22,819 nucleotides of DNA from positions 1 through 22,819 of the IMG/VR virus record IMGVR_UViG_3300034071_000233; one strand, written 5' to 3'. The notes beneath the pieces were generated by a model that was not told the DNA's origin, made no database searches, and saw nothing but the letters and a program-made list of their open reading frames with translations. The position numbers and the translations under genes were made by a program. Below are positions 17,143 to 20,040 of this stretch, in pieces. How positions within the stretch are numbered: position 1 is the first letter of the stretch; each line of letters opens with the position of its first letter. This DNA comes from a virus.

Positions 17143-18804
17143 ATGAAATTTAACGTGTCGGGCGCAAAAGAAGCGGGCTATTCAGACGAAGAAATTCGTA
17201 AGTTTTTGCTTTCTACGCCTGAAACTGCTGAAGCTAAAAAAGCTGGCTATTCAGATGAGGAAATATTCCAGCATTTTGGTTTATCTGCGCCTGAATCGAC
17301 GGCTATGCGCACGGCTAAAGTCGCGGCCGGCGGCGCGGCGGGACCGCTTTTTGGTTTGGCTTCTGGCGCATTGGCAGGATTGGCTACTGGCGGCGGCTTA
17401 GCGGCGGCGGCTCCGATGGCGGCTATTGGTGCGGGCGCTCTTGGCGGCGCAGAGCTTGTCGGAAACGTCTACAATTTAGGCCGCAGCGCGCTTGGCTACG
17501 AGCCTGTCAAGACGCCGTACCAATATATTCGTGGGGCTACTGAAGCGGCTTTCCCGTCCGTGGCCCCGCAAACGCCATATGAAAATGTCGTGCGCGCAGC
17601 GTCCGAAGGCGGCTTTGGTGCGTTGACTGGCGCTGCTGGTGCAGGGCAGATAGCCAACGCTATGTCGCAAGCTGGACGCGCCGCACCGGCTGCGTTGCGC
17701 GCGTTGGCTGCTCAGCCGGTGGCGCAAGGCGTTGCCGGCGCTGTTGGCGCAGCGACTCCCGAAGCGTTGGCGCAGGCCGGCGAAAAAAATCCGTATGTTC
17801 TTGGCGCGGCGGGGCTAATGGCCGGGTATGGCGCGGGACGCATGGCGGCCACTCGCGCGCCTTCTATCGGTGAGCAAGCGGCGGCTAAACGTGGCCGCAT
17901 GGAAGTTCGTGAGCAAACCGCTTTTAGACGTGCATATAATACCGGAGGTATATATGACAACGCCAACTTTAACAACTTTTTGATAAATACCGAAGCTGAT
18001 CTTAGAAACGCAGGCTACGCAAATGATCCTGAAATGCGCGGTGTTACGCGCGCACTAGATCAATTATCGGATGCTGGTCGCAGTAATGTTCTTGACGTTC
18101 AAGAAATTCATCGTCTTCGCAAACGTATAGGCGATACGCTAACGTCAAGAGATCCTAATGTTCAGCGTCTTGGCTATATGCTGCGCGACAGTTTCGATAA
18201 TTTTATATCCGACCCGTCTAATGCGCGCGCAGGACGTGAAGCGCAGACCGAACGCGCCGTTGAATATCTTAACCGCGCCATAACAACATCGTCGCGGCTG
18301 TTCAGAAATGACGAGATACGCGAGGCTGTTCGGCTCGCGTCGGTGTCGAAGCGAGATCAGCTCGGCGCGTTAAGTAACGAGTTCGGTAAGATATTCCGTG
18401 ACCCGGATAAGATTGCGCGATTCTCGCCTAACGAACAAGAGATCATCGCTGATCTGGCGGCAGGGCGCGCTTCGCCTCGCGCTGTGCAGCTTTTGGGCGC
18501 TTTAGCGCCTTCGGCTGATTGGAGTGGTATCGCCAAAGGCGTCGTGGAGTTTGGCCCTGCCATCATGGCTACCGGCGCAATCCCCGGCGTATCTGTGTTC
18601 TCTCCCGTTGCTTCATTGGGCTTGGCGGGAATTGGTGCAGGTAGTCTTTTAGCGCGGCGCGCTCAAAATGCTATGGCAGGCCAAGCAGCGCAGAATCTTA
18701 TGGCGTCTACATTAGGTGGCGTGCCTACATTGCCTCCAGATTACAGAAACCTTGCGCCGGCATTCGCTGCCGGATCGCAAAGTCTTAACGCGATGGCGAG
18801 ATGA
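17143..18804 (+). CDS. Third DNA ejection protein (gp16 position)
   Basis: A 553-residue protein. The N-terminus carries two copies of AGYSDEEI (residues 11-18 and 34-41). Residues about 58-110 are a long G/A-rich hydrophobic stretch (GLASGALAGLATGGGLAAAA) suited to membrane insertion, and a second such region lies around 150-235. The middle (about 265-410) is helical and charged, and a further hydrophobic segment lies near 480-520. This fits an ejection protein that enters the host envelope, like P22 gp16. The start lies 2 bases after the previous stop, with only a weak GGGAAA site, suggesting coupling. Confidence 0.68.
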   Translation: MKFNVSGAKEAGYSDEEIRKFLLSTPETAEAKKAGYSDEEIFQHFGLSAPESTAMRTAKVAAGGAAGPLFGLASGALAGLATGGGLAAAAPMAAIGAGALGGAELVGNVYNLGRSALGYEPVKTPYQYIRGATEAAFPSVAPQTPYENVVRAASEGGFGALTGAAGAGQIANAMSQAGRAAPAALRALAAQPVAQGVAGAVGAATPEALAQAGEKNPYVLGAAGLMAGYGAGRMAATRAPSIGEQAAAKRGRMEVREQTAFRRAYNTGGIYDNANFNNFLINTEADLRNAGYANDPEMRGVTRALDQLSDAGRSNVLDVQEIHRLRKRIGDTLTSRDPNVQRLGYMLRDSFDNFISDPSNARAGREAQTERAVEYLNRAITTSSRLFRNDEIREAVRLASVSKRDQLGALSNEFGKIFRDPDKIARFSPNEQEIIADLAAGRASPRAVQLLGALAPSADWSGIAKGVVEFGPAIMATGAIPGVSVFSPVASLGLAGIGAGSLLARRAQNAMAGQAAQNLMASTLGGVPTLPPDYRNLAPAFAAGSQSLNAMAR

Positions 18805-18806
18805 TT

Positions 18807-19055
18807 ATGGTTGAATACCAAGTTCTTTTTGATGTGGCCATTGGCGTGATCGGCGTGCTGGGCGGCTGGACGCTCAACACCGTCTGGGCGGCCGTGAAGG
18901 ATCTTCAGCAAGCCGACAAAGAATTGGCAGAGAAGGTCGGCCAGATTGAAGTGCTGGTCGCCGGGCGTTATGTGACCCGCGAGGACTTTAATCAGGTGTT
19001 GAATCAGGTGTTCGAACGCCTAGACCGCATCCGTGACTTGGTGAGCCGCCAATGA
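18807..19055 (+). CDS. Membrane-anchored coiled-coil protein of the lysis block
   Basis: An 82-residue protein with one N-terminal membrane span (about residues 6-27, LFDVAIGVIGVLGGWTLNTV) followed by a charged helical, coiled-coil-like tail. I prefer the ATG at 18807 to the one at 18801, because GGCGAG (18795-18800) then has proper spacing; 18801 would overlap the previous stop as ATGA. Its 3' end overlaps the endolysin start as ATGA. The architecture is that of an inner-membrane spanin (Rz-like) or small holin-associated protein, and similar proteins sit near phage lysozymes. Which role applies cannot be decided from sequence. Confidence 0.65.
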   Translation: MVEYQVLFDVAIGVIGVLGGWTLNTVWAAVKDLQQADKELAEKVGQIEVLVAGRYVTREDFNQVLNQVFERLDRIRDLVSRQ

Positions 19056-19558
19056 AAGAGAATTATGACGCCGCGCTGAAGGCGACACTGCGCTACGAGG
19101 GCGGCAAGGTCGACGACCCGCGTGATCCTGGCGGCCGCACTGCCTACGGCGTCACGCAGAATACCTACAATGCGTGGCGCGCTAAACACGGGCTTAACCA
19201 GAAAGACGTGTTTCAGATTGCCGATTCGGAAGTCGCGGCGATTTACAAACAAGAGTATTGGGACAAGATCAGCGGCGACGATCTGCCAGATGGGCTCGAC
19301 TTTGCCGTGTTCGACTTCGCGGTCAATAGCGGCGTCAGCCGCGCGTCTAAATACCTTCAGTCTATCGTTGGCGTGCCGCAGGACGGCATAATTGGCCCGA
19401 AGACGATCCTTGCCGCCAAGTCTTATCTAGGCAACAAGATCACGGACAAGCGGCTTGGATTTTTAAAAGGACTACCGACATGGGCTACCTTTGGGCGTGG
19501 CTGGGCCAATCGAATAAACGACGTTTATGCTGTTGTGCGGGACTTATGCTCGCGCTGA
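19052..19558 (+). CDS. Endolysin, glycoside hydrolase family 108 muramidase
   Basis: Peptidoglycan-cleaving endolysin of 168 residues. The N-terminal GH108 motif RYEGGKVDDPRDPGGRTAYG contains the likely catalytic glutamate E16. The downstream segments LDFAVFDFAVNSGVSRASKY and DGIIGPKTILAA fit the associated peptidoglycan-binding-3 domain. There is no signal peptide or N-terminal anchor, so release depends on a holin. The start overlaps the preceding stop (ATGA). The last 79 bases overlap an out-of-frame lipoprotein gene. Length and domain order are normal for the family. Confidence 0.9.
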   Translation: MKENYDAALKATLRYEGGKVDDPRDPGGRTAYGVTQNTYNAWRAKHGLNQKDVFQIADSEVAAIYKQEYWDKISGDDLPDGLDFAVFDFAVNSGVSRASKYLQSIVGVPQDGIIGPKTILAAKSYLGNKITDKRLGFLKGLPTWATFGRGWANRINDVYAVVRDLCSR

Positions 19559-19626
19559 CAGGCTGCGCCGATTTTAAATACGTCGAATGTATCGCCCGTG
19601 ATAGCACGTCGCGGCCATGTAACTAA
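19480..19626 (+). CDS. 48-residue lipoprotein embedded in the endolysin 3' end
   Basis: A short gene in a different frame from the endolysin. AAAGGA (19466-19471) lies 8 bases before its ATG, supporting translation. The protein has a positive patch (NKRR, residues 12-15), a hydrophobic segment (LCCCAGLMLALTG) and the lipobox LTGC with lipidated C29. The mature part is only 20 residues and ends with two further cysteines (C37 and C47, in VEC and RPCN). I recognise similar tiny phage lipoproteins ending like this, but not a proven role. An outer-membrane spanin-type or lysis-timing function is possible. About half of the gene overlaps the endolysin. Confidence 0.75.
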   Translation: MGYLWAWLGQSNKRRLCCCAGLMLALTGCADFKYVECIARDSTSRPCN

Positions 19627-19637
19627 AGGAGGCTAAA

Positions 19638-19814
19638 ATGTTAGCTAATTGGATGACCACAATCCCTGGCGTTATCGCTCTTGCCAGCGTTCTTTGGCAT
19701 GCTTGGCAGACCAAAAGCCTTAACTGGGAAGATCTTCAGAGCGCGCTTGTCGGTTTGGGCCTTGTCGCCGCTAAAGATTGGAACGTGACGGGCGGCACCA
19801 AGCCGAATGATTGA
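19638..19814 (+). CDS. 58-residue membrane protein, holin candidate
   Basis: A small gene with a strong AAAGGAGG (19625-19632) 5 bases before its ATG. The protein starts MLANWMTTIPGVIALASVLW and has a second apolar segment (LVGLGLVAAKDW) before a polar tail with the motif AAKDWNVTGG. Two short hydrophobic segments and position beside the endolysin suggest a class II-type holin or a holin-like accessory protein. The 'GL.AAKD..VTGG' ending recurs in small phage membrane proteins. The first segment is only moderately hydrophobic, so the holin call is tentative. Its 3' end lies next to the start of the second lipoprotein. Confidence 0.68.
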   Translation: MLANWMTTIPGVIALASVLWHAWQTKSLNWEDLQSALVGLGLVAAKDWNVTGGTKPND

Positions 19815-19824
19815 AGGGGTCAGG

Positions 19825-20040
19825 TTGCAGAACCTAAAACCAAAGATGAAACTGCCGCTGATCTTGATGCTGGCAAGTTTTAGTGGGTGTCAGTCGACCA
19901 GCAGGTGTCCCCCGCTGGTCGACTATTCGGCCGAACTCCAAACCAAAGCGGCCAAAGAGTTACGCGCTCTCCCCAATGACAGCGCTATTGCTAGGCTCGT
20001 CCAAGATTACGGCCAGCTCCGGCGAACTTGCCGCCTTTAG
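19825..20040 (+). CDS. Spanin-like lipoprotein
   Basis: A lipoprotein of 64-78 residues depending on the start. Candidates are ATG 19807, TTG 19825 and ATG 19846. I list 19825, because AAGGGG (19814-19819) lies 5 bases before it; starting at 19846 would give a clean MKLPLILMLASFSGC signal. The lipobox SFSGC is clear in all. The mature part has C.PPLVDYS, a helix with A/E/L/K and DYGQLRRTCR at the end, resembling Rz1-like and other phage lysis lipoproteins. It would sit in the outer membrane and work with an inner-membrane partner. Its last 81 bases overlap the convergent DUF6378-like gene. Confidence 0.68.
   Translation: MQNLKPKMKLPLILMLASFSGCQSTSRCPPLVDYSAELQTKAAKELRALPNDSAIARLVQDYGQLRRTCRL
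19892..19924. other. Perfect 11-bp inverted repeat inside the spanin-like lipoprotein gene
   Basis: AGTCGACCAGC (19892-19902) and GCTGGTCGACT (19914-19924) are exact inverted repeats around an 11-base loop. They lie in codons just after the lipidated cysteine and about 35 bases beyond the stop of the convergent minus-strand operon. There is no T-run on either side, so it is not a standard terminator. It could serve as a bidirectional RNA hairpin or a protein-binding palindrome. Confidence 0.6.

Follow-up and report, generated by a model that had tools for sequence, protein, structure and literature searches.

A tiny lipoprotein gene that begins inside a phage endolysin gene and recurs behind four unrelated endolysin types

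The window, meaning the whole 22,819-nt stretch of DNA analysed here, is a 22.8-kb virus record that encodes a P22-type coat protein (PHROG 283, 5e-76) and a portal protein (PHROG 156, 4e-85). Its closest named relatives by coat protein are the Manatee Spring podovirus ctNMl277 (MW202483, L144; 96.5% identical) and phage DSL-LC05 (75.9%). The endolysin of ctNMl277 is 58% identical to that of the window and the tiny gene described below is absent from it, a difference that we read as a lysis-module swap between near relatives. The window cassette runs from an 84-aa transmembrane/coiled-coil protein through a GH108 endolysin, a tiny ORF and a 58-aa putative holin to a 77-aa second lipoprotein, and comprises the following features.

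18801–19055, plus strand: 84-aa protein with an N-terminal transmembrane helix and a likely coiled coil (PHROG 462, 8e-11; no Pfam match above cut-off).
19052–19558, plus strand: GH108 endolysin of the N-acetylmuramidase type (Pfam GH108, 1.5e-28; PHROG 315 endolysin, 5e-49).
19465–19471, plus strand: Shine–Dalgarno sequence AAAAGGA, within the endolysin gene and 8 nt from the ATG.
19480–19626, plus strand: tiny lipoprotein gene, 48 codons, ATG start, MGYLWAWLGQSNKRRLCCCAGLMLALTGCADFKYVECIARDSTSRPCN (from the ORF sequence, conservation in 51/51, synonymous constraint and pN/pS).
19555–19566, plus strand: lipobox L-T-G-C, with the codon of the predicted acylated Cys29 at 19564–19566.
19585–19623, plus strand: C-terminal motif ECIARDSTSRPCN, cysteines 9 residues apart (from alignments).
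19638–19814, plus strand: 58-aa putative holin (from sequence and conserved position).
19807–20040, plus strand: 77-aa second lipoprotein (SFSGC...CPPLVDYS...) in the o-spanin position (PHROG 26778, 1.7e-14).
19815–19880, plus strand: C-terminal tail of an i-spanin, in frame after the conserved TGA of the holin (from pN/pS by frame).

The tiny ORF is read in a different frame from the GH108 endolysin and overlaps it by 79 nt, corresponding to codons 1–26. The endolysin stop (19556–19558) sits just upstream of the lipobox cysteine codon, and thus only the signal peptide, with its K13-R14-R15 stretch, hydrophobic core and LTGC lipobox, is hidden within the endolysin gene. The mature lipoprotein (codons 29–48, CADFKYVECIARDSTSRPCN) is encoded outside it, and its 20 residues include two further cysteines, C37 and C47. 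An earlier note on this DNA had described a 48-residue frame with good ribosome spacing, a KRR stretch, a hydrophobic core, an LTGC lipobox and a mature part of 20 residues with two extra cysteines, all of which are present; its placement of the gene in the endolysin 3′ end holds for the signal peptide but not for the mature peptide. An AlphaFold model contains just a low-confidence helix across the signal peptide (pLDDT 68, pTM 0.27) and is otherwise uninformative. No SAR or signal sequence is evident in the endolysin. Downstream, the Shine–Dalgarno sequence of the putative holin (19625–19632) overlaps the stop codon of the tiny gene; since the 58-aa protein matches no family in Pfam or PHROGs, its role as a holin is one that we infer.

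An endolysin-based scan of viral contigs returned 80 loci, from which 51 sequences with a complete ORF region, the window included, form the clade set; these were selected by their endolysin and not by the lipoprotein motif. The Shine–Dalgarno sequence, start, basic n-region, lipobox and EC..RD.TS.PCN motif are kept in all 51 (25 distinct proteins), the lipobox varying among LTGC, LSGC, LGGC and LNGC and the Shine–Dalgarno sequence among AAAGGA, AAAGGG and AAGGGA. A broken start or lipobox beside the same endolysin, named beforehand as the observation that would count against the gene, occurs in 0/51. All 53 clade endolysins contain a Shine–Dalgarno sequence with an ACATGG start. Related endolysins lacking the tiny gene never do: there the same segment reads MQSL.IW in the protein and contains neither a Shine–Dalgarno sequence nor an ATG. 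Synonymous diversity in the endolysin (observed/expected) falls to 0.31 in the overlap, compared with 0.60 upstream, and the lowest upstream block of equal length is not below 0.49. The control clade without the tiny gene has no such dip in the corresponding segment (0.72 vs 0.72). Beyond the endolysin, codons 28–48 have a pS of 0.50 and a pN of 0.055, giving a pN/pS of 0.11. When the endolysin codons are reshuffled synonymously, a start and open frame appear at this site in 5% of cases, which is not very rare, so the case for the gene rests on comparison. From that comparison we conclude that the ORF is a genuine gene, on sequence evidence translated in its own frame and under purifying selection; the selection tests strongly support its status as a gene, as had been suggested. 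At one locus (L026) the endolysin stop is lost and six codons are added, extending the overlap to 97 nt and leaving the lipoprotein unaltered.

Three scans, with a lipoprotein query, a motif and an alignment, together yielded at least 82 distinct lipoproteins and at least 102 distinct contexts. The motif scan imposes EC..RD.T..PCN by construction, a bias from which the 51 endolysin-selected sequences are free. Among the matches listed, the lipobox cysteine is retained in 81/82 distinct relatives, which supports a lipoprotein, and the residue at +1 after it is mostly Ala, Glu, Ser or Gln, with Asp in three. The only listed copy with a Cys-to-Phe change (LTGF; L140, 2923–3066) follows an M15 endolysin and is otherwise intact; it could be a pseudogene, a sequencing error or an unlipidated variant. 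Family members outside the GH108 clade can be as short as 33 aa. They start where the endolysin stops, most often overlapping it by 4 nt, so the overprinting in the window clade looks like a local solution.

The gene upstream among the matches listed encodes a GH108 endolysin in about 34 contexts, an M15 peptidase in about 16 (PHROG 465 endolysin, 6e-62), a GH19-like enzyme in 11 (PHROG 181 endolysin, 8e-24) and an amidase in one (PHROG 1794, 1e-28). It is because the lipoprotein gene directly follows these four unrelated endolysin types that we link it to lysis. The other contexts are mostly in larger genomes, some of 160–170 kb; in T4-like carriers outside a cassette the neighbours include a T4-type exonuclease (PHROG 298) and a single-strand binding protein (PHROG 224, gp32), so a part in lysis may not hold for the whole family. 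The earlier note's idea of a possible lysis or envelope factor is thus supported in its lysis part by gene position in the cassettes and not in the T4-like genomes, and the endolysin overlap that it reported is a property of the window clade only.

The post-endolysin slot also has other occupants. More distant GH108 loci (L068, L069, L071, L072, L074) carry a different 31-aa lipoprotein, SGCAPAKYIFHCTVTQPRNCN, at −10 to +86 from the endolysin stop; with its lipobox, two C-terminal cysteines and final CN it is probably a diverged family member. Three others (L061, L063, L066) have a 66-aa lipoprotein there. In L137 and L193 a gene resembling an HNH-type homing endonuclease by eye separates the lipoprotein gene from the M15 endolysin, and ~1.4 kb downstream of the lipoprotein gene in one large phage (L161, 4681–5079) lies a gene for a YkuD L,D-transpeptidase (Pfam, 1e-20) that has a signal peptide.

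No model in Pfam, PHROGs or NCBIfam matches the family beyond the signal peptide. Weak matches in these libraries to DUF6726, DUF4971, LptM and Cor were dropped, as they mainly cover the signal peptide: the LptM (YifL) NCBIfam model reached one relative at an E-value of 0.019, below cut-off, over residues 1–20 only, leaving the mature part unmatched, and Cor PHROG 1119 aligned at 0.038 to residues 3–24 of one relative, mostly signal peptide. The colicin lysis-protein family was absent from the Pfam matches of 54 family members and from the NCBIfam matches of the window protein, and a profile search of PDB chains gave signal-peptide-like matches only (E 1.6). A tblastn search of 50,697 phage records found no convincing relative, the short query limiting sensitivity, though partial matches of ~27 bits were reported. 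Five further queries gave nothing, or weak matches mostly to signal peptides or non-lipoproteins. Matches in Menderavirus were rejected as chance similarity to a distinct 97-aa lipoprotein. Pattern and profile-pattern scans of 84,980 GTDB genomes found no relative, hence no host or prophage copy, and in the open literature we found no description of a small lysis-cassette lipoprotein beyond the spanins. The term unrecognised is therefore supported for Pfam, PHROGs, NCBIfam and the searched phage and GTDB collections. The lipoprotein is carried by many uncultured phages and was found in no cultured phage genome searched. The case also shows that current phage family libraries lack genes of fewer than 50 codons, among them genes that share their signal-peptide region with an enzyme gene in another frame.

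Lysis by phages of Gram-negative bacteria is usually described in terms of a holin, an endolysin and spanins, and a lipoprotein that accompanies four unrelated endolysin types and coexists with spanins suggests a further, overlooked component. The explanation we place first, and propose tentatively, is that the tiny gene is an accessory beside the holin, endolysin, i-spanin and o-spanin, whose product would, around the time of lysis, weaken the outer membrane or periplasm of the host, or reprogram it, and so make release of progeny efficient; opening of the outer membrane is ranked first because of the position in lysis cassettes. The lipoprotein would be made with the endolysin, late in infection, from its own Shine–Dalgarno sequence in the window clade and through ATGA stop–start coupling in most other carriers. 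As judged from the sequence, signal peptidase II and acyl transfer would leave the peptide lipid-anchored in the envelope, facing the periplasm, where C37 and C47 may close a disulfide loop. Most probably it acts on a conserved component of the host envelope and not on a phage lysis protein, since the motif stays constant while the fold of the endolysin, the type of holin and the o-spanin family vary, and since the gene also occurs outside cassettes. That some dozen residues of the motif hardly vary points to a fixed envelope target in the host, which would give a ready lead to a weak point of the outer membrane.

In form, the colicin lysis proteins, or bacteriocin release proteins, are similar: these too belong to a lysis module and have a precursor of about 45–50 aa, a lipobox and a very short mature lipopeptide. 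They are plasmid-borne, whereas the tiny lipoprotein is phage-borne, matches them nowhere in sequence and has a conserved Cys-x9-Cys motif, which to our knowledge no bacteriocin release protein has. Additions to lysis modules do exist, as a standalone SH3 protein has lately been proposed as an auxiliary component in T1-like phages (PMC13164509). A bolder proposal, speculative and probably too strong, is that the family represents an unknown class of effector, in which a loop of some dozen residues, anchored by lipid and closed by a disulfide, attacks or reprograms one conserved host envelope machine (Lpt, Bam, Tol-Pal or the lipoprotein–peptidoglycan linkage, for example). The gene would then be a cassette gene exchanged between podoviruses and T4-like phages, and would mark an additional, unrecognised step of Gram-negative lysis.

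The serious rival to an accessory lysis role in our analysis is superinfection exclusion or receptor masking, which we think possible though doubtful. Here the lipoprotein would bind the periplasmic face of an outer-membrane protein, stop further adsorption and shield released progeny from receptors on debris. The idea is serious because Llp and Rtp45 are likewise tiny and disulfide-held: these functional precedents are periplasmic lipoproteins, Rtp45 of about 6 kDa with a Cys30–Cys38 disulfide (PMC12685063) and Llp, very small, with a Cys11–Cys58 disulfide (PMC9586334). A small cysteine pair near the C terminus and late production would also suit protection from debris. The tiny lipoprotein thus shares with T5 Llp, T1 Cor and Rtp45 its phage origin, small size, cysteine pair and presumed periplasmic location. 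However, sequence similarity to them is confined to the signal peptide, the Cor PHROG matching no further, and with a mature peptide of about 20 aa it is one third their size or less. Its gene is linked to endolysin and not to tail genes, and its motif is nearly invariant over P22-like and T4-like phages, whose receptor-binding proteins are probably unrelated.

Less favoured, and unlikely, is a spanin role, accessory or alternative, in which the peptide would serve as a minimal o-spanin and dock through its C-terminal cysteine loop on an i-spanin or on the i-spanin tail behind the holin. The lysis-cassette location agrees with this, as do the two cysteines: the two-cysteine class is the commonest among o-spanins (240/526; PMC6139136), and T4 PseT.2 likewise has two C-terminal cysteines, 87 and 98. 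Like lambda Rz1 and T4 PseT.2, the product is a small lysis-cassette phage lipoprotein with a lipoprotein signal, a lipobox and periplasmic cysteines, and its gene, as is frequent for o-spanins, overlaps another and goes un-annotated. The overlap is with the endolysin gene instead of an i-spanin gene, and no i-spanin gene was found as overlapping or adjacent partner, the neighbours being the endolysin and the putative holin. The proline-rich region is absent, and the mature chain of about 20 residues is half of Rz1 (40 aa). Of the 55 lysis-cassette contexts that extend 850 nt or more downstream, 54 contain, by pattern, a second lipoprotein of o-spanin type after the gene, belonging to one of two families, and inspection by eye adds the last (L258), so the tiny lipoprotein is not simply the o-spanin. 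That place is taken by the downstream CPPL or PHROG 1275 lipoprotein; in L133 this gene scores 1e-8 against PHROG 1275 ('Rz-like spanin'), and the gene beside it 3e-4 against PHROG 1026, which has the same annotation. The inspected M15 and GH19 cassettes contain i-spanin-like genes, and the peptide is constant although i-spanin types vary among cassettes. The window protein has no PHROG match, and its relatives reach spanin PHROGs at E 0.08 or worse, at the level of the signal peptide. The 84-aa transmembrane/coiled-coil protein was discarded as an i-spanin partner, being absent from GH19-type and some M15 lipoprotein-carrying cassettes.

A periplasmic, antiholin-like regulator of holin or endolysin timing seems highly improbable: the gene does lie between endolysin and holin in the inspected GH108, M15 and GH19-type cassettes, but the holin and endolysin families vary freely around an unchanged peptide, and the carriers outside cassettes have neither gene adjacent. 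A chance open frame preserved merely by the overlapping endolysin is already refuted by the comparative data, for all that reshuffled codons can produce one, as half of the ORF, mature peptide included, extends past the endolysin gene and is under constraint, the synonymous dip is confined to clade members that have the gene, and the same peptide recurs behind unrelated endolysins.

Downstream of the tiny gene, the holin stop codon is TGA in 27/27 distinct clade sequences (window region 19812–19880), and the 22–24 in-frame codons after it match the C terminus of the ctNMl277 i-spanin (..VMAPKTVDDTATDLDNGTF vs ..VAAPKTVDETAADLDAGKF). No start codon is present behind the TGA, and the N-terminal part of the i-spanin is missing in the clade phages. 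Across 23 aligned sequences the pN/pS of the tail is 0.22 in the holin frame, compared with 2.8 and 1.4 in the others. This pattern suggests TGA readthrough into a holin/i-spanin fusion, which would explain continued selection on the tail once the N-terminal part of the i-spanin had gone.
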